In this document: one piece after another, positions 1 to 6,889 of the stretch
Layout of the letters: every line of letters begins with the position of its first letter
How positions within the stretch are numbered: position 1 is the stretch's first letter
Assembly (NCBI GenBank): GCA_027886785.1
Contig: JAPCJV010000095.1
Span: 1 to 6,889, forward strand
Source of the DNA: Nitrososphaerota archaeon
Lineage (GTDB): Archaea; Thermoproteota; Nitrososphaeria; Nitrososphaerales; CADDZS01
Length of the DNA: 6,889 nt
Direction: 5' to 3'
Notes under the pieces: model-generated
Databases searched by the model: none
Told to the model about the DNA's origin: nothing
Seen by the model: only the letters and a program-made list of their open reading frames with translations
Program-made: the position numbers and the translations under genes

Positions 1-9
1 ATACATTAG

Positions 10-174
10 CGAGCGCGCTTTCTTCCAAGCCTGGGTCATGGATTTCGTGGCGGGGAAAAAGATGGGATAGCTCTCGTCGCGGACGGCTTCAAGCGCGCGA
101 GTGCGATCGTTTTGATTAGCTGGAATACTGCTGTTGACGTAGCTTCAGAAGCGATAGAGACTGTTGTCGCATAA
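10..174 (+). pseudogene. Possible frame-broken 3' end of an unidentified gene
   Basis: This frame is open from just after a TAG at 7-9 to a TAA at 172-174. It has no ATG or GTG start. Its last part reads like real protein: DGIALVADGFKRASAIVLIS, then an amphipathic end VASEAIETVVA. The left piece reads more naturally one frame over (2-67: SERAFFQAWVMDFVAGKK), and the two frames meet at a GGGGAAAAA run (52-60), a typical place for an indel. I read this as the tail of a gene entering from the left with a +/-1 frameshift, either a mutation or a sequencing error. I recognise no family. It could also be chance open frame; the absence of a start is the main reason to call it broken. Confidence 0.25.
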
Positions 175-325
175 GAATTTTCCAAATGGCCCTAAATAAA
201 ATCGGCCGCATTTAATAATCCAAACTGCCCCAGGTGCATTTACATTGCATAAGGGATGACCAGGATTCTTGACCACCGGAAGAAAGCAAACGCTCAAATC
301 AACGAGCTTTAGGTCGTGTTGAACT

Positions 326-505
326 GTGGTCTCGACTGGAATCCAAAGACTAGACCAAATCCTATTCGACGGTTATCCGGATAGATCTTCTGTTTTGATC
401 ATTGGTCAACCGGGAATAGGAAAAGAAGCATTAGGCTACTGGTTCACTCGTTCGGGGCTAATCCAAGGAGAATACTGCCTGTACGTAAGAACCGTTCGGT
501 TGTAG
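326..505 (+). pseudogene. Truncated KaiC-like (RecA-superfamily) ATPase fragment
   Basis: From a GTG at 326 to a TAG at 503-505 the frame encodes 59 residues matching the start of a KaiC-domain ATPase. It has the TGIQRLDQIL element (usual form TGIxxLDxxLxGGxP), then GYPDRSSVLIIGQPGIGKE as P-loop strand and Walker A (residues 27-34), then ALGYWFTRSGLIQGEYCLYV, corresponding to the usual QF...G...GE..LYV segment. Everything after that strand (Walker B, the second half of the roughly 230-residue domain) is missing, and no other frame downstream resumes the pattern. The Walker A Thr/Ser is Glu here, which may be subfamily-specific or a sign of decay. An in-frame TGA lies just before the GTG (320-322) and no good promoter is visible. 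KaiC-like archaeal ATPases act in signalling and regulation. This copy cannot be a complete ATPase and is most likely a relic; a short expressed peptide is less likely. Confidence 0.6.
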
Positions 506-540
506 TGCTTTGCTCGTGGGCACGCAGATTAACCCCCAGA

Positions 541-548
541 TTTATTCT
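541..548 (+). promoter_or_regulatory. TATA-like box of the Hef-like helicase gene
   Basis: TTTATTCT lies about 25-29 bases before the TTG at 570. With the usual archaeal spacing, transcription would begin on or next to that TTG, giving a leaderless message. The GGGTGG at 563-568 is too close to the TTG to act as a Shine-Dalgarno for it, but lies 16 bases before an in-frame GTG at 585. The match to a TATA consensus is modest. Confidence 0.35.
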
Positions 549-569
549 GAGAAGATTTAACAGGGTGGC

Positions 570-2183
570 TTGGTTTCTTCGCAAGTGTTTCCTGTGGAGG
601 ACGCTTCCTCGTTAACTGAGGCTGGACTAGATACAGCACTCCAGTACAGGGAATACCAAACGGACATAGCTTCTGAAGCAGCGAAATCAAACACTCTTGT
701 CATACTACCTACAGGATTGGGTAAGACAATTATCGCAATCCTTGTGGCCAAAGAAAGGCTGAACGGGCCCGACAATTGGCTGAAAAATAGAAGGGTGCTT
801 GTGTTAGCTCCGACGAAACCCCTCGTCCTCCAACATCGCGAGAGCTTCTTTCGAGCCTTTAATTCAGTCCCACCGTTTTATCAGGTGAGCGAATTCGTTG
901 TCTTGACTGGCGAGTCGTCGCATGAACAGAGATTAAGATTCTGGGAAGGCAATGGAGGAACTTTCCTTTTCGCAACCCCTGAAACGGTGGCAAACGACCT
1001 TGAATTAGCCGGAGAAAAATCTATTCTGGAGGACTTTGTCCTAATTGTATTCGATGAAGCCCACAGAGCAGTCAAGGAGTACGCATACACAGAAATTGCA
1101 AGAAGATACGTTGGTGCAAAGCCGAGCGATCCTCTGATTTTGGGTCTTACTGCCTCGCCCGGAAGTTCACGAGAAAAAATCGAAGAGATAAAGGGCAACC
1201 TCTTCATCCAGAAAGTGGCATCGAGGAATGAAGAAGACGCAGACGTATCTCCTTACGTTGAGGAAACCACGACCGAAGCGATTAGAGTCAGGCTCAGCGA
1301 CGAGTATGAGGGATCATTAATTTCTCCGCTTAAGGTTGTCTTCGAGGAAAAAATCGGCAAGCTCAGAAAGCTTGGACTAGTTCCACGCGCTGGGAACCTG
1401 GTGTCCAAGAAGATCTTGATCGGAGCGCGGGAAACAATTCTCGCGAGAATGAAAAAACAGAGAAGCCGGATGTATCTTTTCAATGCACTCTTTGTGCAAG
1501 CTCAAGCTGTTATGATTCTCCACGCTATCGAAGTCGCTGAAACACAAGGAGCGTACACATTGACGAGATACTTCGAGAGAATGAGAGAAAATCCAGATCA
1601 AGGAAGGGCTACCAAATCCCTGCTGAAGGATGAGCGGTGGATGAGGGTCGAGGCAAGTACGAAGAAAGCAGTTCGTAGCGATCTGTTTCCGAAGTTCGAA
1701 CTTCTCAGCACACTCGTCTCCGAACAGTTAGAAAGGAAATCCACATCAAAGATCATAATTTTCAGTCAGTACAGAGATACAATAGAGGAAATAGTAGGAA
1801 AGCTTCTCCTCGTTTCTCCCACGATAAGGCCGCACAAGTTTGTGGGCCAATCTTCCAAGGGCGAACAGGACAAGGGGATGAGCCAGAAAATCCAGGGAGA
1901 AATCCTAGAAAGATTTCGAACTGGGACAGAGTTCAATGTACTCGTCAGTAGCAGTATAGGGGAGGAAGGGTTGCATATTCCCGATGTGGACTTGGTGGTT
2001 TTCTACGAAGCAGTTCCATCGGAGATCCGATCCATTCAGCGGAAGGGAAGAACCGGAAGGACCATGCCTGGGAGAGTAGTCATACTGCTCGCAGAAGGAA
2101 CTGTGGACGAGGCGTACTACTTCAGCACGCTCGCAAAAGAAAAGAAAATGAAATCCTTGGTAGTAAAAGCGAGTGAGGTTTAG
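570..2183 (+). CDS. Hef/FANCM-type superfamily 2 DNA helicase, no nuclease domain
   Basis: 537-residue DEAH-type helicase of the Hef/FANCM/Mph1 group, which remodels stalled replication forks and branched DNA. Visible motifs: YREYQ (26-30); Walker A PTGLGKT (47-53); Ia APTKPLVLQH (80-89); TPE (136-138); DEAH (162-165); TAS in GLTASPG (192-198). A charged helical insert of about 230-350 is typical of Hef. Domain 2 has IIFSQYRDT (396-404), a VGQSSKGEQDKGMSQK segment strongly reminiscent of Hef/FANCM (425-440), GEEGLHIPDVDLVVFYE (464-480) and motif VI QRKGRTGR (490-497). Euryarchaeal Hef continues into an XPF-like nuclease and HhH domains; this protein stops soon after motif VI, so it is a stand-alone translocase, as known for other archaeal lineages. 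The start is TTG at 570: an in-frame TAA lies at 558-560 and no ATG precedes the helicase core. GTG at 585 or 594 are alternatives. A single-gene transcript is suggested by its own TATA-like box and a T-rich tract after the stop. Confidence 0.93.
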   Translation: MVSSQVFPVEDASSLTEAGLDTALQYREYQTDIASEAAKSNTLVILPTGLGKTIIAILVAKERLNGPDNWLKNRRVLVLAPTKPLVLQHRESFFRAFNSVPPFYQVSEFVVLTGESSHEQRLRFWEGNGGTFLFATPETVANDLELAGEKSILEDFVLIVFDEAHRAVKEYAYTEIARRYVGAKPSDPLILGLTASPGSSREKIEEIKGNLFIQKVASRNEEDADVSPYVEETTTEAIRVRLSDEYEGSLISPLKVVFEEKIGKLRKLGLVPRAGNLVSKKILIGARETILARMKKQRSRMYLFNALFVQAQAVMILHAIEVAETQGAYTLTRYFERMRENPDQGRATKSLLKDERWMRVEASTKKAVRSDLFPKFELLSTLVSEQLERKSTSKIIIFSQYRDTIEEIVGKLLLVSPTIRPHKFVGQSSKGEQDKGMSQKIQGEILERFRTGTEFNVLVSSSIGEEGLHIPDVDLVVFYEAVPSEIRSIQRKGRTGRTMPGRVVILLAEGTVDEAYYFSTLAKEKKMKSLVVKASEV

Positions 2184-2204
2184 ACTTCTAAAACAAATGA
2201 AAGA

Positions 2205-2227
2205 TTTTTAGTCTCTTTTCCTTCTTG
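2205..2227 (+). terminator. T-rich termination tract after the helicase gene
   Basis: A pyrimidine tract with T5, T4 and several shorter T runs begins 21 bases after the TAG of the helicase gene, with no notable hairpin before it. This is the usual form of archaeal intrinsic termination. It is followed at once by the TATA-like box of the next gene, so the two genes are probably separate transcripts. Confidence 0.5.
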
Positions 2228-2230
2228 AAG

Positions 2231-2241
2231 AAAAATAAATT
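2231..2241 (+). promoter_or_regulatory. TATA box for the 78-residue protein gene
   Basis: AAAAATAAATT is centred about 32 bases before the ATG at 2268. Transcription would start about 2262-2266, leaving almost no leader, and there is no Shine-Dalgarno-like sequence before the ATG. Its position directly after the upstream T tract supports an independent promoter. Confidence 0.5.
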
Positions 2242-2267
2242 ACTATTGACAGGTTGGAATTCGACAA

Positions 2268-2504
2268 ATGTCAGAAGAAGACAAACAGGGTAAGAACCGA
2301 AGGCTACGTGTTATTTTTGAAGAAGATGCAAATGGCCAGAAGAGGATTCTGAGAGAAATACCTTTACCATTCAAGAAATTCTCCTCGGGCAGCGACGGGT
2401 TCTACGGAAGCGACAAGATTCCTCTGGATAATGGGGAGCGATATCAGGTCAGCGTCATCATGACCAGAATTGGCTCAAAGCCGAAAGATCCCCCCAAAAA
2501 TTGA
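2268..2504 (+). CDS. Small charged protein, unknown function
   Basis: 78-residue soluble protein of a family I do not recognise. It has a Lys/Arg/Glu-rich N-terminus (about 1-14), then an alternating strand-like segment RLRVIFEE (12-19) and a second, KRILREIPLPF (25-35). A Gly/Ser-rich loop with GSDGFYGSD (42-50) follows, then a third strand, YQVSVIMTRIG (58-68), and a basic Pro-rich tail, KPKDPPKN. The pattern suggests a small all-beta fold. There is no signal peptide, membrane helix or cysteine pair. ATG at 2268 is chosen because it lies at the right distance from a good TATA-like element and is the first start in the frame. It follows the helicase gene by 84 bases on the same strand but with its own promoter, so co-function is not implied. 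Confidence 0.7.
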   Translation: MSEEDKQGKNRRLRVIFEEDANGQKRILREIPLPFKKFSSGSDGFYGSDKIPLDNGERYQVSVIMTRIGSKPKDPPKN

Positions 2505-2570
2505 ATCATCAAGGAACGCTCTAAATTTGGAAGAGTGGATAACGATCATTAGCTCGAGTTATTGAAGCTC

Positions 2571-2593
2571 TCTCTTCGGTTTCTTTTTCGTTT
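2571..2593 (+). terminator. T-rich tract downstream of the 78-residue protein gene
   Basis: A pyrimidine-rich stretch with a T5 run (2584-2588) and flanking T3 runs lies 66 bases past the TGA of the small charged protein gene. It fits an archaeal T-tract terminator without a hairpin, though the distance from the stop is long. Confidence 0.3.
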
Positions 2594-2700
2594 ACGGGAT
2601 GCGTAATTCACCCTTAATAGTTGAGGCGCCGGCGAGTGGATCCTCACCCAATTATTGCTTTGTCAATACGAAGTTGACGGTTGCTGTTTGGGATTGGCTC

Positions 2701-2714
2701 AGCGCGCGCGCGCT
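2701..2714. repeat. (GC)6 alternating tract, 14-bp palindrome
   Basis: AGCGCGCGCGCGCT is a perfect palindrome made of six GC dinucleotides in moderate-GC intergenic DNA, 77 bases before the start of the next gene. Alternating GC favours left-handed DNA or cruciform extrusion under negative supercoiling, and such a run is also prone to slippage. Whether it has a role here is unknown. Confidence 0.6.
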
Positions 2715-2790
2715 AGATTTCTGATTTGCTTGTATCATTTCTTCACTCCCGATCAGTTTAGGTCAAGCTAGGAATAGAGATTGGTACTTC

Positions 2791-3006
2791 GTGAACGAGA
2801 GGTTTCGATTCGTTATCATCCTTGCGGTGCTGGTGTTTTTGATTTTGATCGCGATTCCATCTCTGTTCGGTCATTTTTCATTAACAGACATTTTCGCTCT
2901 GAGTGCGATATACATTGTTGCGATAGTAATTGATCGCATTGTCATTTACATGGCTTTTCGAAAAGTTCCTCTGGAAGCATATTATCAAGATGAGTCCCAC
3001 TATTGA
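2791..3006 (+). CDS. Small two-helix membrane protein, unknown function
   Basis: 71-residue protein dominated by two hydrophobic helices: about 7-28 (FVIILAVLVFLILIAIPSLF) and about 31-54 (from LTDIFALSAIY to VIYMAF). A short basic N-terminus (NERFR) and a polar C-terminal tail (RKVPLEAYYQDESHY) point to a hairpin with both ends on the cytoplasmic side. No family recognised. The start is GTG at 2791: the frame is open back to a TGA at 2722, but there is no ATG or better-placed start. A weak TATA-like TTTAGG (2757-2762) lies about 30 bases upstream, which would again give a leaderless message. The hydrophobicity pattern and length make a real gene likely even without homology. It converges with the minus-strand membrane protein gene ending at 3182. 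Confidence 0.6.
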   Translation: MNERFRFVIILAVLVFLILIAIPSLFGHFSLTDIFALSAIYIVAIVIDRIVIYMAFRKVPLEAYYQDESHY

Positions 3007-3181
3007 TTTTCTCGGGTTCTTGCGTTTTGTTTGAATGCAACTCCGTATTCGGTTTTCATTTCTCGTCGCTTTCCCTTAATTCATGTAGTGGGAGAAATTC
3101 ATACTCCTTGGGTGAGTTTTGTATGATCGAAGTCCGGAGTGTTAGTTGGATCAGACCCACTTCTTTCTTGTTCGGGGCTCT

Positions 3182-3625
3182 TTAGACAATTCGCGAGATC
3201 AGCACAGGTATGTTATGGAGCAATACGATATAGCCGTAAAATAGGTTCGCGACAACTAGAGCGATTATCACCGCCAATTTTACCTGCCTAATTTCATGCG
3301 GCTGGGAGTCAGGATGATCATTCTCCTTCAGCAAGAGTGGATAGATAATCAACATTGTAGGGATTACCATTAGGACGATCACGGAAAAAACAAACCCAAA
3401 AATTCCACCGCCAAACAGGATCGCTGCAACCCTGTTCAGCTCGTAGAACGAATCACGAAAGACGGTCATCGCCACAAGAGTGGAGGCTACGTCTAGTACA
3501 CTCAACGCCACGAACAAAACAAATAAGGCGCGGAGAGCTTTGTCGAGTACTAGAAGATCTAGAGCAGAGAGCCACTTTTTGTCGCGCTCATTGAGCTGAC
3601 GTATTCTTTCTGAATAGTTGACCAA
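3182..3625 (-). CDS. DUF5658-like three-helix membrane protein
   Basis: 147-residue integral membrane protein. Predicted helices: about 33-54, 66-98 (long, probably kinked, Gly-rich at its start) and 114-138. It carries the pattern I associate with DUF5658: an Asp and Thr in the first helix (LDVASTLVAM, D45 and T49) followed by an acidic-Asn signature before the second (YELNRVAAILF, E62 and N64). The molecular role of that family is unknown. The N-terminus is charged and cytoplasmic in character (SERIRQLNERDKKW). The start is TTG at 3625 because no ATG or GTG exists between the upstream in-frame stop and the first helix, so the exact start is uncertain. It lies 219 bases downstream of the isomerase-fold gene on the same strand; that gap is long for tight coupling but no strong separate promoter is evident. 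The family call rests on motif memory only. Confidence 0.72.
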   Translation of the reverse strand: MVNYSERIRQLNERDKKWLSALDLLVLDKALRALFVLFVALSVLDVASTLVAMTVFRDSFYELNRVAAILFGGGIFGFVFSVIVLMVIPTMLIIYPLLLKENDHPDSQPHEIRQVKLAVIIALVVANLFYGYIVLLHNIPVLISRIV

Positions 3626-3725
3626 AAAGTTTCGAGCTTTCGAGAGTAAGTGATGAAGTTCCCGAAAAGAAGATTAAAGTTTGCCGGATGCCCCTTGTCA
3701 GAGTCATCCATAATGTGGGGCGAGG

Positions 3726-3746
3726 GAATCTTTTTCATTCAGATTC
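3726..3746 (-). repeat. Short inverted repeat in the gap between two minus-strand genes
   Basis: GAATCT (3726-3731) and AGATTC (3741-3746) are perfect inverted arms with a 9-base loop. The 219-base gap 3626-3844 that contains it otherwise shows no gene. The arms lie about 100 bases past the end of the isomerase-fold gene and 100 before the membrane protein gene, so the element could be an RNA hairpin in a shared transcript. A 6-bp match of this kind can also arise by chance. Confidence 0.3.
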
Positions 3747-3844
3747 TGTCCATTAGATCGTAGCCCTGACCCCCACGCATGGTCGGAGCGTGAACTCGAA
3801 ATGTGTACTAGCTAGGGTGGTTTATTCGCTACTTGATTTCTTAT

Positions 3845-4186
3845 TTAGGGCATGCGGGCCGCCATCGCTTTCATCCCGTTCGCTTGTTCCCTCGCAAGTC
3901 CAAGAACGGTGCTGAACGAAGTCATGAGGTGGATATCCCATTTCGTGACCGCCCACAATGGAAGAGAACTGAGCATCTTACTCAATCCCTCGGCCGAAGA
4001 AGCTTCCATTATGAAGCATCCCGCTCTCTGTCCCGCGAAACCTCCGCCTATTATTTTTCCCTCTTTTTCCCATTTCTCTAACGTCTGGAAGCTGGGGATT
4101 ACCAAGTTCTCCATGAACGCGATGCCATCTTTTGGATTGACTGGTCCTCCATAATCTACACTCTCTGCCGAAACTAGGAATTTCAT
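3845..4186 (-). CDS. Muconolactone-isomerase-fold (dimeric ferredoxin-like) protein
   Basis: 113-residue soluble protein. The N-terminal strand MKFLVSAES, a helix spanning about 21-43, the strand pair with GGGFAGQRAGCFIMEASS (47-64), a helix SAEGLSKMLSSLP (64-76) and the last strand KWDIHLMTSF (82-91) reproduce the order of the muconolactone delta-isomerase family (small dimeric alpha/beta-barrel proteins). The most telling stretch is the 'G.....CFIMEASSAEGLSKMLSSLPLW' block, which matches the family's glycine, strand, helix and LPLF pattern. In bacteria the namesake enzyme acts in aromatic ring degradation. No such pathway is visible here, so substrate and activity are unknown, and a YCII-like or stress-type role is possible. 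Residues 94-113 form a short extra helix. The start ATG (4184-4186) is 25-32 bases from an excellent TATA box, implying a leaderless message. It is transcribed divergently from the G1-like exported protein. Confidence 0.8.
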   Translation of the reverse strand: MKFLVSAESVDYGGPVNPKDGIAFMENLVIPSFQTLEKWEKEGKIIGGGFAGQRAGCFIMEASSAEGLSKMLSSLPLWAVTKWDIHLMTSFSTVLGLAREQANGMKAMAARMP

Positions 4187-4210
4187 TTCGAGATTCTGAA
4201 CTCACTCTCT

Positions 4211-4218
4211 TATTTATA
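4211..4218 (-). promoter_or_regulatory. Strong TATA box for the isomerase-fold gene
   Basis: Read on the minus strand this is TATAAATA, a near-ideal archaeal TATA box. Its centre is about 29 bases before the ATG ending at 4186, placing the transcription start within a few bases of the start codon. The flanking upstream bases, where TFB binds, lie next to the dyad at 4221-4235. Confidence 0.7.
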
Positions 4219-4220
4219 CA

Positions 4221-4235
4221 CCTTCGCTCCGAAGG
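4221..4235. promoter_or_regulatory. 15-bp dyad abutting the TATA/BRE, candidate operator
   Basis: CCTTCG-CTC-CGAAGG is a perfect 6-bp inverted repeat with a 3-base spacer. It begins two bases upstream (minus-strand sense) of the TATA box of the isomerase-fold gene, covering the TFB-recognition position, within the 152-base divergent region shared with the exported-protein gene. A dimeric regulator bound here could control one or both promoters. No regulator gene is visible in the window. Confidence 0.4.
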
Positions 4236-4297
4236 CTTTAGTTTAGGGCGGGTAATCGCAACTTGGTCTCTTGATTTTCCTGATTCCATACACTTGG

Positions 4298-4307
4298 AAA
4301 AATAACT
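4298..4307 (+). promoter_or_regulatory. TATA-like box for the exported G1-like protein gene
   Basis: AAAAATAACT is centred about 36 bases before the ATG at 4339. Transcription would begin about 4328-4332, giving a leader of roughly ten bases. The match is weaker than that of the divergent gene. Confidence 0.4.
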
Positions 4308-4338
4308 TTGAAATAGCCACTCATTCTCCAATCAGCTC

Positions 4339-5142
4339 ATGGTTTATTTTTCTCGCAGAACTGGAAATTTCTTTTATCGCGCTAATTTTGAGATCGCCTT
4401 AATTTTAGTTCTGATTTTAGGCAGCGCATCTGTTTCGGCATTTCCCGCAGCCCCCGTGAAGAACATTTTTCAGGGGGGATATGCGGGAGTGATTAACCCG
4501 TCCACAACTTCGAACACGGTGATCAAAGGAAGTTGGAATGTTTCTCCGTTAGCGTGTCAACCGACTCTTAGCCAAAACCAAGAGGTGGCGAGCTACATAG
4601 GATTTTTTGCCGTGGAAAAAGGTACTTCGAATAGTCTGTTCCTGGGCATAGGGGTGTACGAGCAGTGTCTGCAAGGTCAGACCACACCTGTTTACTCTGC
4701 GATTACGATCGTATCCACCGCCGGAACCGGGATAATCTACACCCTCTCTACGATCCATGTAAAGCCTCCAGACAAAGTAAGCGCAGTGATTACATTGAAT
4801 CCATCAACTGATGCGGTGAAAGGGACAATAAGAGATACCACGAATTCGCAATCCGGGAGCCATTCCGATACGTTGACGTTCACTCCCACCACTTACAACG
4901 CGCAATGGCTCATCTCTCCCACAATCACATCTGCCACAACCATTCTTCCTCTTGCAGACTTTACTACTCCAATTAAGTTTGCAAATGCTGCTTTGACCGA
5001 TACAACAGGAACGCACTTCCTTTCGAAACTTCCGGGGCTAACTAACTTTGAACTAGTTTTGGGAAGCGATGTGCTTGCAATAGCTTCGCCGATCTCTGGT
5101 AATGGTAATTCTTTCCATATTACCTGGAAAGCATCGACATAA
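4339..5142 (+). CDS. Exported G1 (eqolisin) peptidase-fold protein, catalytic residues absent
   Basis: 267-residue secreted protein. Basic N-terminus, hydrophobic core about 17-31 (ALILVLILG) and a likely signal-peptidase site after SVSA (34). The remainder follows the beta-sandwich order of glutamic peptidases of family G1, compared from memory with scytalidoglutamic peptidase. GGYAGVI (46-52) stands for the WxG start; VIKGSWNV (61-68) for the 'VxxxxNVP' strand; SYIGFF (85-90) for WVGIDG; SLFLGIGV (99-106) for ILQTGF; DKVSAVITL to TIRDTT (145-168) for the GD.I...V to L.N.TTG hairpin; NAQWLIS (187-193) for NAEFIIE; and LPLADFTTPIKF (204-215) for VPFASFSPAVEF. The catalytic Gln (Q53 there) falls on Gly103 and the catalytic Glu (E136) on Ser193, so peptidase activity is unlikely. 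A binding or structural role outside the cell is my inference. Two cysteines (73, 110) could pair. There is no C-terminal anchor, so it is probably released or non-covalently wall-bound. Confidence 0.8.
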   Translation: MVYFSRRTGNFFYRANFEIALILVLILGSASVSAFPAAPVKNIFQGGYAGVINPSTTSNTVIKGSWNVSPLACQPTLSQNQEVASYIGFFAVEKGTSNSLFLGIGVYEQCLQGQTTPVYSAITIVSTAGTGIIYTLSTIHVKPPDKVSAVITLNPSTDAVKGTIRDTTNSQSGSHSDTLTFTPTTYNAQWLISPTITSATTILPLADFTTPIKFANAALTDTTGTHFLSKLPGLTNFELVLGSDVLAIASPISGNGNSFHITWKAST

Positions 5143-5176
5143 AGGGAAATGGTGGAAATGAAGCCGTTTGGCTCGA

Positions 5177-5196
5177 TTTTCCTCGTGTTTGTTTTT
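5177..5196 (+). terminator. T-rich tract after the exported G1-like protein gene
   Basis: Four T runs of 3-5 bases, starting 35 bases after the TAA of the exported protein gene, fit an archaeal T-tract terminator. No strong stem precedes it. Confidence 0.4.
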
Positions 5197-5377
5197 CCCC
5201 ACGAGTAGTCTAGGATCTTTGTAATCCTCGATGGGAACTTGGAAAGAACAAAGGGGGCGCGGGGTAATAAATCTCCTGGATACTTGCGTTACCGTTTATT
5301 TTTCTCAAACATCAGAGCTTCATACGTAGTGTCCAAATTCACCTTGTGCCTGATGTCTTTTGGTCCTTAACAGCAGG

Positions 5378-5397
5378 GCTTTTCTTGGTTTGGAGAG
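5378..5397 (+). repeat. Direct repeat copy 1 (GCTTTTcTTGGTTTgGAGAG)
   Basis: This 20-base copy matches 5589-5607 (GCTTTTTTTGGTTTGAGAG) with one substitution and one single-base gap, 211 bases apart, and weaker similarity continues about 15 bases to the right (both end in a GGG/CGAG-type run). It contains a T run, so part of the match may be low complexity. Confidence 0.45.
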
Positions 5398-5432
5398 TCT
5401 ACGGAAAGGGCGAGCGTTCCAGTATTTCATCA

Positions 5433-5449
5433 CCTAGGGCCCCCCTAGG
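5433..5449. repeat. 7-bp GC-rich hairpin, CCTAGGG/CCCTAGG
   Basis: CCTAGGG (5433-5439), loop CCC (5440-5442), CCCTAGG (5443-5449): a perfect 7-bp stem, each arm containing a CCTAGG site. In archaea, where hairpins are not the main terminator signal, a regulatory or RNA-structure role is as likely as termination. Confidence 0.5.
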
Positions 5450-5483
5450 GGTTCTGCAAAGCGGGGGGAGCTACCTTCCGGAA

Positions 5484-5508
5484 TTTGTATCGTACAAACT
5501 AGTTTGTA
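5484..5508. promoter_or_regulatory. Operator-like TTTGTA/TACAAA/TTTGTA array next to a TATA-like element
   Basis: Three alternating half-sites, TTTGTA (5484-5489), TACAAA (5493-5498) and TTTGTA (5503-5508), are separated by 3 and 4 bases. The last two form the perfect 16-bp palindrome TACAAACTAGTTTGTA (5493-5508), which runs straight into TGTATAAAAC (5506-5515), a TATA-like element reading rightward. The arrangement is that of a repressor site occluding a promoter. A transcript would start about 5535 and first meet the T7 run at 5591-5597, so the product could be a short RNA. The regulator is not in the window. Confidence 0.4.
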
Positions 5509-5588
5509 TAAAACATATCAGCGGTTCAAATAGAAAAAAATCCTGTTCTGCAAGTGCTTGTACCAGTTCACGGCACAAAGTGTTTCAA

Positions 5589-5607
5589 GCTTTTTTTGGT
5601 TTGAGAG
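5589..5607 (+). repeat. Direct repeat copy 2, including a T7 tract
   Basis: Partner of 5378-5397. The T7 run (5591-5597) is preceded by CAAGC (5586-5590), complementary to GCTTG at 5556-5560, so this copy may also act as an intrinsic-type stop for a short rightward transcript. Confidence 0.4.
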
Positions 5608-5640
5608 CTAGCGTTTGGGCCGAGGAAGCTATGAGGGGAC

Positions 5641-5673
5641 TACTCAATGTCCACAAAGTGGATCCATTGAGTA
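5641..5673. repeat. Long hairpin: 9-bp plus 5-bp perfect stem
   Basis: TACTCAATG (5641-5649) pairs with CATTGAGTA (5665-5673). Inside it TCCAC (5650-5654) pairs with GTGGA (5658-5662) across an AAA loop, leaving a 2-base bulge (TC, 5663-5664). Fourteen pairs in 33 bases make this the strongest foldback I found in the window. Function unknown. Confidence 0.65.
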
Positions 5674-5723
5674 TGGAGTATATTGCTATGAGATAGTGTA
5701 GGATGTTAGCTGACGTGGCCAAC

Positions 5724-5737
5724 GCGGAAATTTCCGC
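5724..5737. repeat. 14-bp perfect palindrome GCGGAAATTTCCGC
   Basis: A gapless dyad in the gap, about 90 bases past the 3' end of the Ser/Thr-rich surface protein gene. Typical of a dimeric protein-binding site, with no adjacent TATA-like sequence that would identify a target gene. Confidence 0.45.
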
Positions 5738-5825
5738 CTATGGTATGCACTGTTATTGAGTCTGGCAGTTTATCAGCGGAAGTACAAGCTAGATCTATTT
5801 CTCCGCCTCGTAGTTGGGTTTCTGG

Positions 5826-6889
5826 TTACCAGCGCCAGCCGCTGCTTTCTTTATTGGATCTTTCGCGCCTGTTCAGTAACGCTTTCACCGGCAACCGGGC
5901 GGTGAAAAAGACCCCGAAAGCCGCTAGGACACCAAGGGCTAGAGCTACCGGCTGGTGGGGACTAGGCGCAAACATGGTCGCTGAAAAGAATTCGAATCCG
6001 CTGCGTGGAACTGAGGGTGGTTGAGCTCCTGTTACCGGGTGGGAGGGTAAAGATACTCCTTCCCCGCGACCATTTCCGTCGCAATGATCGTATCGCGCCG
6101 CGTGAATTAAATCCATTCCCCACATTCGATCTTGATACTGGCATGGGTGACGTCGATCATTATCCGTGCTGGTCGTACTCGAAGAGCTCAAAGTTGTTTG
6201 AGTGGTTTGGGAACTGCTCGTCTCTGAGGTCCATGTCGACGTAGCAGTCGAGGTAGCGGAACTGGTATCCGAGGTGGTAGTTGAAGGGTCTGTGGAAGTT
6301 ATAGAACTCGTCTCAGTAGTCAAACTTGTCGTAGAGGAGTCGCTCGTTTGCGAAGTGCTCGTCGGTAAAGTCTCTGTAGATACAGAACTGGTGATTGTAG
6401 AGGAATCAGAGGATGTTGAATAGCTACTTGTCGTCGGACTTGTAGAACTTGTCACTGATGAACTGGAACTGCTGGTTGCGGAGGTCGAGCTGTCAGTCGA
6501 AGTCGTTTTGGTTGTCGAGGTAGTGGAAGAGGTGGAGGATGAGGTGTGGGTTGTCGAATGAGAAGTGGAAGAGGAAGTGGAGGTATGTGAAGTTGACGAG
6601 CTAGACGAAGTAGAGGAATGAGTGGAAGTCGTTGAAGAGCTTGTCGTGCTGGTAGTGGAGTGAGAGGATGAGGTGGTCGTGATGCCTTGGGATTGCATAT
6701 ACAGATTCGTGTATTGCTGGGCACTGACGGGGACATAGCCGGAACCTAGTTGGTTCATCACCTGCTGAATGAAGGGGAATCCAGGATTCTGAGCATTCAT
6801 TATAACGTAGACGAAGTGTCCCCCTCCTCTTATCTGATTAACAGCGGTGGTCACATCGCTCGAGCCATATGAATAGCCGGCTGCTTCCC
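5826..6889 (-). CDS. C-terminal part of a Ser/Thr-rich, membrane-anchored surface protein (5' partial)
   Basis: The frame enters from the right edge without a start and ends in TAA at 5826-5828, giving 353 residues. The first about 68 visible residues are a folded ectodomain end: AAGYSYGSSDVTTAVNQIRG, then GGHFVYVIMNAQNPG, IQQVMNQLGSGYVPV and QQYTNLYMQSQG. I do not recognise the domain; a carbohydrate- or phosphoester-active secreted enzyme is only a guess. Then comes a roughly 170-residue stalk almost wholly of Ser and Thr (6165-6680), expected to be extended and O-glycosylated. A mixed segment with two Cys (about 6000-6164) follows, then a hydrophobic helix (VALALGVLAAFGVFFTARL, about 5890-5950) and a basic tail (NRRERSNKESSGWRW), the stop-transfer layout of a C-anchored envelope protein. 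The GTG at 6852-6854 is an internal Val, not the start. The segment between stalk and helix has different composition and may have been shifted out of frame. Confidence 0.8.
   Translation of the reverse strand, partial: EAAGYSYGSSDVTTAVNQIRGGGHFVYVIMNAQNPGFPFIQQVMNQLGSGYVPVSAQQYTNLYMQSQGITTTSSSHSTTSTTSSSTTSTHSSTSSSSSTSHTSTSSSTSHSTTHTSSSTSSTTSTTKTTSTDSSTSATSSSSSSVTSSTSPTTSSYSTSSDSSTITSSVSTETLPTSTSQTSDSSTTSLTTETSSITSTDPSTTTSDTSSATSTATSTWTSETSSSQTTQTTLSSSSTTSTDNDRRHPCQYQDRMWGMDLIHAARYDHCDGNGRGEGVSLPSHPVTGAQPPSVPRSGFEFFSATMFAPSPHQPVALALGVLAAFGVFFTARLPVKALLNRRERSNKESSGWRW
6165..6680 (-). repeat. Low-complexity Ser/Thr-coding tract
   Basis: About 516 bases of near-repetitive TCN/AGY/ACN codons encode the stalk of the surface protein. 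Units are irregular rather than exact tandem copies, with occasional Asp, Glu, Pro, His and Trp. Such tracts expand and contract easily. The opposite strand reads as a Val/Glu-rich open frame, which is an artefact of this composition. Confidence 0.75.

Follow-up and report, generated by a model that had tools for sequence, protein, structure and literature searches.

A putatively secreted archaeal homologue of G1 glutamic peptidases without the catalytic Gln/Glu dyad

Glutamic peptidases of family G1 (eqolisins; MEROPS G1, PF01828) carry a catalytic Gln/Glu dyad, which is Q53 and E136 in scytalidoglutamic peptidase, and the consulted part of PMC6154417 names W67, E69 and D43 as further important residues of the cleft. 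Fungal G1 homologues without the dyad are known (PMC3009609, PMC6154417), and the consulted part of PMC6154417 discusses possible 'non-functional homologs'. In 2010, PMC3009609 described what glutamic peptidases of bacteria and archaea do in vivo as unknown. In the portions consulted of the openly licensed literature on eqolisins, glutamic peptidases and pseudoproteases, no description of archaeal pseudo-eqolisins was found. Here we describe P0001, a predicted protein of 267 amino acids (aa) encoded on contig JAPCJV010000095.1 of a Nitrososphaerota archaeon (assembly GCA_027886785.1, positions 1 to 6,889 of the forward strand; this whole stretch of 6,889 nucleotides is called the window). Judged by its sequence, P0001 is a G1 homologue and not a G1 peptidase: the Gln and the Glu sites both appear non-catalytic. 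Sequence and predicted structure together make it very probably a secreted pseudo-peptidase that descends from an archaeal G1 ancestor, kept the fold, lost the catalytic set and has dyad-less kin in related genomes.

The kinship was assessed with an archaeal profile of 121 G1 proteins, retrieved with an archaeal G1 query and archaeal in all named members. Mature P0001 scored 34.6 bits compared with 11.0 bits for the best of 2000 shuffled sequences, and the whole protein reached 33.7 bits compared with at most 5.6 bits for non-G1 open reading frames (ORFs; 412 real ORFs of at least 150 aa from the collected loci). Profile-profile comparison (hhalign) of P0001 and its single database relative, P0002, with 25 G1 proteins gave a probability of 97.1% and an E-value of 5.6e-11 over 203 columns. 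Shuffles, unrelated ORFs and hhalign thus ruled out a chance resemblance. In the reverse direction, P0001 as query found matches at E ≤ 1 in 16 of 398 genomes, the top three all at PF01828 places (G282, E 7.9e-7; G241, E 6.9e-6; G350, E 2.1e-4), and the two best matches in 200 further genomes (E 1.5e-4 and 4.4e-4) were intact G1 proteins. The weaker matches, in 13 of the 16 and five of seven genomes, had E-values of 0.005 to 0.58, at which kinship to P0001 is unsupported. The G1 resemblance proposed in a sequence-only reading of the window therefore lies far above chance. An archaeal G1 profile is needed to see it. Pfam gave no PF01828 match at E ≤ 10 and only sub-threshold hits to DUF7300 (E 0.01) and Amelin (E 1.7). 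NCBIfam and PHROGs did not recognise the protein, a PDB sequence search returned a single, unrelated match (E 0.17), and scans of genome_contigs, viral contigs and plasmids were unproductive.

A good structural model, built with G1 relatives in the alignment, predicts the G1 fold of two bent antiparallel β-sheets for P0001, and fold searches match glutamic peptidases, in keeping with the eqolisin fold assigned earlier. The model from the P0001 sequence alone was poor (predicted local distance difference test, pLDDT, 42; predicted template modelling score, pTM, 0.34) and gave no significant fold match. Below the glutamic peptidases, the fold-search list contained 1,3-1,4-β-glucanases, legume lectins and alginate lyases. 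A fold unrelated to G1 was ruled out by the archaeal-profile score, the fold search and hhalign.

The catalytic sites were read from an alignment, A1, of 107 homologues taken from the best 120 of 1184 matches, with P0002 kept outside the conservation counts. Its Gln column holds Gln in 106 homologues and His in one, and P0001 has Gly103; its Glu column holds Glu in 107 of 107, and P0001 has Ser193. A larger set of 156 rows (P0001 and 155 others, leaving out P0002 and the duplicates L046, L047 and L069) gave Gln in 152, His in one and a missing region in two at the first site, and Glu in all 155 at the second. The Trp and Glu of the W-Y-E motif, each present in all 107 A1 homologues, are replaced by Ile122 and Ile124, and the whole W-Y-E-F-Y-P block reads I-T-I-V-S-T. 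The Glu preceding the catalytic Gln is also gone, and the Asp of GIDG (D43) corresponds to Lys94 in A1, in a column near an insertion that makes for the least sure of these assignments. Altogether, 46 columns show at least 95% conservation among the homologues; P0001 keeps 17 of them, including the start Met and four glycines.

The register at Gly103 is fixed by a cysteine pair that anchors the alignment. Both cysteines occur in 69 of the 107 A1 homologues, neither in 38 and one alone in none, and Cys73 and Cys110 are the sole cysteines of P0001. Among the 69, the catalytic Gln stands 7 residues before the second Cys in 65 and 8 residues before it in three, while one has no Gln; the residue 7 before Cys110 is Gly103. 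Glutamates of mature P0001 are found at 82, 93, 108 and 238 only; there is none between residues 109 and 237 and therefore, by alignment, none on the strands that bear the catalytic Glu. No other Gln/Glu pair at the catalytic place is evident from the alignments, the Cys register and the glutamate positions. Both alignments thus agree with the earlier assignment of Gly103 and Ser193 to the dyad columns and with the apparent loss of both catalytic residues. Gln111, named there as an alternative, was misread: residue 111 is Leu, with glutamines nearby at 109, 112 and 114.

The gene itself (Table 1) had been placed at 4339-5142, and the positions of its ATG and stop codon bear this out. When codon use in all six frames was compared with the helicase gene of the window, the P0001 frame fitted best (-0.008; others -0.039 to -0.545, minus frame 1 being second), which supports the frame without proving it. 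The putative export signal also stands: residues 19-33 form a hydrophobic, export-like segment (mean Kyte-Doolittle value 2.53 in the 15-residue window from 19), and pLDDT falls below 50 over residues 14-35 of the relative-assisted model. The claim of an own TATA-like element was not borne out. The clearest TATA-like box of the intergenic stretch, TTATTTATA at 4210-4218, has the minus-strand reading TATAAATAA and lies about 24 bp upstream of the start codon of the divergent gene (ATG at 4186); the promoter side of P0001 on the plus strand shows only a weak A-rich stretch by eye (4297-4306).

Table 1. Coordinates of P0001 and its diagnostic residues in the window
Feature	Position	Strand	Basis
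Coding sequence of putative pseudo-eqolisin P0001	4339..5142	+	ATG 4339, stop codon 5140-5142, 267 aa
Predicted N-terminal export signal, residues 1-34	4339..4440	+	Hydrophobic window; cleavage after ASVSA inferred by eye
Cys73 codon, first of conserved pair	4555..4557	+	A1 pair pattern
Gly103 codon at the catalytic Gln (Q53 of scytalidoglutamic peptidase)	4645..4647	+	Alignment column and Cys110 spacing
Cys110 codon, second of conserved pair	4666..4668	+	A1 pair pattern and Gln spacing
Ile122-Thr123-Ile124 replacing W-Y-E (W67, E69 of scytalidoglutamic peptidase)	4702..4710	+	A1 column
Ser193 codon at the catalytic Glu (E136)	4915..4917	+	Alignment column; Ser in P0002 too

Among 5.8 billion proteins the sole relative of P0001 was P0002, a protein of 157 aa that is 58% identical over 44% of the query and likewise has Ser in place of the catalytic Glu. 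P0002 aligns poorly in its N-terminal part; a frameshift was sought as explanation and gave no signal above shuffles. A second database search with P0001 and P0002 as query returned nothing beyond P0002. Searches of nine genomes of one family, that of genome G531, gave matches in G553 and G547, namely two near-identical intact G1 paralogues (L084 and L086, which may be one gene assembled twice) and two dyad-less proteins. In one of the latter, L087 (also P0124 and L162), Gln is replaced by Asn and Glu by Thr; in the other, L085 (also P0125 and L160), the Gln is lost and the Glu changed by alignment. BLASTP aligned P0001 with P0124 and P0125 over most of its length (E 4e-10 and 5e-8). A profile of these three proteins found matches, intact ones included, in 26 of 300 genomes of the order; of 51 such matches we read those of the G531 family, eight further loci and many others, leaving unread, for instance, L131, L138 and second matches on some contigs.

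Thirteen dyad-less G1-like ORFs were recognised in five of the nine family genomes (one in G531, four in G543, three in G547, two in G553 and three in G557), and ten intact G1 ORFs in six genomes among those read. Like P0001, all 13 keep both cysteines (accepted within several columns of the aligned places), have no Gln seven residues before the second one (Cys-7) and no Glu at the aligned Glu site. The residues at Cys-7 and at the Glu site are L and I in L157, I and V in L159, N and T in L162, Y and D in L143, Y and G in L130, T and D in L148, S and T in L149, G and D in both L146 and L150, L and G in L147, D and Q in L154, V and G in L160, and E and S in L152. In the same comparison, Q and E are found in all eleven intact or reference rows that have the Cys pair. 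Less clear cases are L147, with a Gln three residues further upstream, L160, with a Glu two residues earlier, and L159, with a Glu two residues later. A hydrophobic N-terminal segment is present in 12 of the 13 and absent from the first 90 residues of L159. The notion of P0001 as the sole dyad-less archaeal G1 relative was overturned by this set. The PF01828 cut-off of 22.3 bits is passed by the dyad-less P0124 (40.4), P0125 (31.8) and L159 (57.8); L152, like P0001, has no PF01828 match.

Some further observations concern these sets. L159 (1227-2720, plus strand) is an ORF of 497 aa whose G1 part is C-terminal (residues 278-435, PF01828 57.8 bits), and Pfam matches nothing in the approximately 270 residues that precede it, possibly owing to a fusion or a wrong start. 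L157 and L159, a dyad-less pair from G543 and G547 with 60% identity, read LEL and IEI for VEQ and FYAFYP and FYAFVP for WYEFYP; both retain the end of the block and lack Gln, Trp and Glu. Other archaeal G1 relatives (L044, L065, L099, L100, L101 and L104) are very divergent, scoring approximately 25-46 bits with the archaeal profile; their Gln and Glu motifs can still be recognised, and some carry insertions. In an earlier set of 25 G1-like ORFs, L096 and L103 were not judgeable at the Gln site; L153 is a fragment, and L151 ends at a contig edge.

The dyad-less L146 (G557) and L150 (G543) are 79% identical over 284 aligned residues, and the ratio of nonsynonymous to synonymous substitution rates (dN/dS) between them was 0.15 by NG86 and 0.149 by YN00 over 284 codons. 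At least one dyad-less branch is therefore held by purifying selection, as shown for this one pair. The two genes have a common upstream gene and different downstream genes. In the only other pair close enough, L157/L159, dS was saturated. In trees without the dyad-less relatives P0001 stands apart; with them it groups with L087 and L085 in one tree (84/93) and with L147 and L160 in another (83/89). On the unresolved tree, the dyad need have been lost only once.

In four of the 13 dyad-less genes (L087/L162, L147, L152 and L130) an acid-peptidase gene lies directly upstream on the same strand. L087/L162 begins 18 bp after a kumamolisin-like sedolisin gene (PDB match E 4.8e-17), in which the E..D and GGTS motifs of kumamolisin are aligned, and L147 begins 149 bp after a second sedolisin-like gene (PDB match E 2.5e-19). 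Thermopsin genes precede L152 (403 bp; PF05317, 137 bits) and L130 (231 bp; PF05317, 111 bits). Among the intact genes, L158 adjoins a convergent subtilase-family gene, and L145 (1440-3369, minus strand) begins 4 bp after a same-strand gene with NHL/arylesterase-like Pfam matches. The consulted part of PMC10640624 describes putatively extracellular S53 and A05 peptidases in the Gagatemarchaeaceae, a family of acidic soils; that the G531 family is the Gagatemarchaeaceae is a guess.

We propose that P0001 descends from an archaeal G1 glutamic peptidase and has kept the predicted exported, disulfide-locked double-sheet fold, while its catalytic set is lost: Gly stands for the Gln, Ser for the Glu, and the W-Y-E-x-Y-P block and the Asp around them are gone. 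With this set lost, P0001 should not cut by the G1 mechanism, as far as sequence and model indicate. It might instead use the old cleft to bind outside the cell, and so take part in extracellular acid proteolysis as a partner, inhibitor, decoy or chaperone. Binding rather than cutting is the most likely activity; the part in acid proteolysis is suggested by the acid-peptidase genes that adjoin some relatives, though not P0001, and is offered tentatively. For the whole explanation, a pseudo-peptidase with most likely a binding role, we put the probability at approximately 0.65. A wider and more doubtful idea is that Nitrososphaerota of acidic-soil type hold a diversified repertoire of secreted pseudo-eqolisins that pair with extracellular sedolisins (S53) and thermopsins (A5) and would inhibit them, activate them or present substrates to them, P0001 being a divergent stand-alone member. 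If true, protease-pseudoprotease pairs would extend across unrelated peptidase families, outside the cell and in archaea.

Several points weigh against this explanation. The dN/dS was measured on relatives, L146 and L150, and not on P0001, for which no full-length close relative is known because P0002 covers only 44% of it. The end branch of P0001 is long (7.29 compared with a median of 0.34; 3.71 and 2.89 in two later trees), its grouping with the dyad-less relatives has weak support, and long branches may join falsely. Asp occupies the Glu site in four of the 13 relatives, so the acid has not been lost altogether in these. The thermopsin neighbours speak for the explanation, with two seen among the 13 genes where 0.02 were expected from 22 matches in approximately 14.8 Mb of five genomes; but the resulting p of about 2e-4 was calculated post hoc on the assumption of one gene per kb and concerns thermopsin only, sedolisin genes being uncounted genome-wide. 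No acid peptidase was found among the tested neighbours of the other nine relatives, the Pfam check having covered 18 ORFs plus two at L087 and not every flank, with L154 at a contig end. The window holds no peptidase gene beside P0001, which is flanked by a divergent gene upstream and a convergent Ser/Thr-rich ORF downstream.

The relatives point best to a partner or regulator in acid proteolysis. The strongest rival is a glycan-binding, lectin-like protein of the wall or matrix, whose acid-free cleft would bind cell-surface sugars or soil polymers. The glucanases, lectins and lyases that come next in the fold searches, and the likeness of eqolisins to lectins and glucanases noted in the consulted part of PMC6154417, speak for it; this likeness belongs to the whole G1 fold, however, and is nothing particular to P0001. 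Mature P0001 has 3 Trp, its old catalytic and supporting positions are now Gly, Ser and Ile, and four relatives adjoin acid-peptidase genes, so that we consider a lectin role unlikely. A decaying, functionless relic whose frame stayed open by chance would account for the extreme divergence of P0001 and for its one, partially matching database relative. Yet the 267-codon frame has a signal peptide, both cysteines and its share of near-invariant columns, codon use is slightly best in that frame, P0002 is similar over its matching part, and the one comparable pair of relatives is constrained, all of which makes a relic very improbable. Least probable is a hydrolase that has acquired a different catalytic arrangement within the G1 cleft, in the manner of neprosin, which has a different catalytic pair on a related fold, given Gly and Ser at the two sites of P0001, the stretch of 109-237 free of Glu, and Gln-site replacements that vary by protein (L, I, N, Y, T, S, G, D, V, E) and fit relaxed constraint better than one new common site.

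Elsewhere in the window, a Hef-type helicase of 537 aa (570-2183, plus strand) scored 547 bits against NCBIfam NF010337, below the model cut-off of 610. The match covers positions 14-504 of 781, and the helicase thus would be without the C-terminal nuclease part; among helicase frames in the order, the closest relatives are also short (about 520-600 aa) and more distant ones measure 640-770 aa. Its identity to genes in G531 and G582 is 57-58%; bins named Nitrososphaeria, Nitrososphaerales and Thaumarchaeota (G004, G005, G007 and G008) belong to the same order, and this kinship supports the archaeal setting assumed for the window. A small protein with a sub-threshold match to muconolactone isomerase (PF02426) is encoded divergently from P0001 (3845-4186, minus strand). 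The C-terminal part of an open-ended ORF (5826-6887, minus strand) has a long Ser/Thr-rich stretch; its last hundred residues look different in character, perhaps through a change of frame within the low-complexity region.

That a lineage carries several copies of the G1 fold without its catalysis, one pair of them held by purifying selection, suggests a second use of this fold, and operon-like pairs such as L087/L162, 18 bp from its sedolisin-like gene, make that use directly testable. Peptidase counts based on Pfam include dyad-less members (P0124, P0125, L159) yet miss P0001 and L152. Within the literature searched, archaeal dyad-less G1 homologues, multiplied in one family, with purifying selection and peptidase neighbours, are new here.

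P0001 resembles the archaeal glutamic endopeptidases of MEROPS G1/PF01828 in predicted fold, strand order and export signal, in the framework glycines G47, G95 and G105, in the LAxF and SF motifs and in a Cys pair found in many archaeal members. Unlike them, it has lost the catalytic pair as well as the W, E, Y, P and D residues of the cleft, and it goes unrecognised by Pfam. It differs by alignment from scytalidoglutamic (2ifw, 1s2b) and aspergilloglutamic peptidases (1y43, 3trs) in having Gly for Q53 and Ser for E136, and W67 and E69 of the former are both replaced by Ile. The regulation of a protease by a catalysis-free relative is described for cFLIP and procaspase-8 (PMC10211241, consulted part); this may serve as an analogy for the proposed role, fold and cell biology being unrelated. 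Compared with the fungal non-peptidase G1 homologues listed in MEROPS, the dyad-less set described here is archaeal and occurs in several copies per genome within one family; purifying selection acts on one pair, and some of the copies lie beside genes of other acid peptidases.
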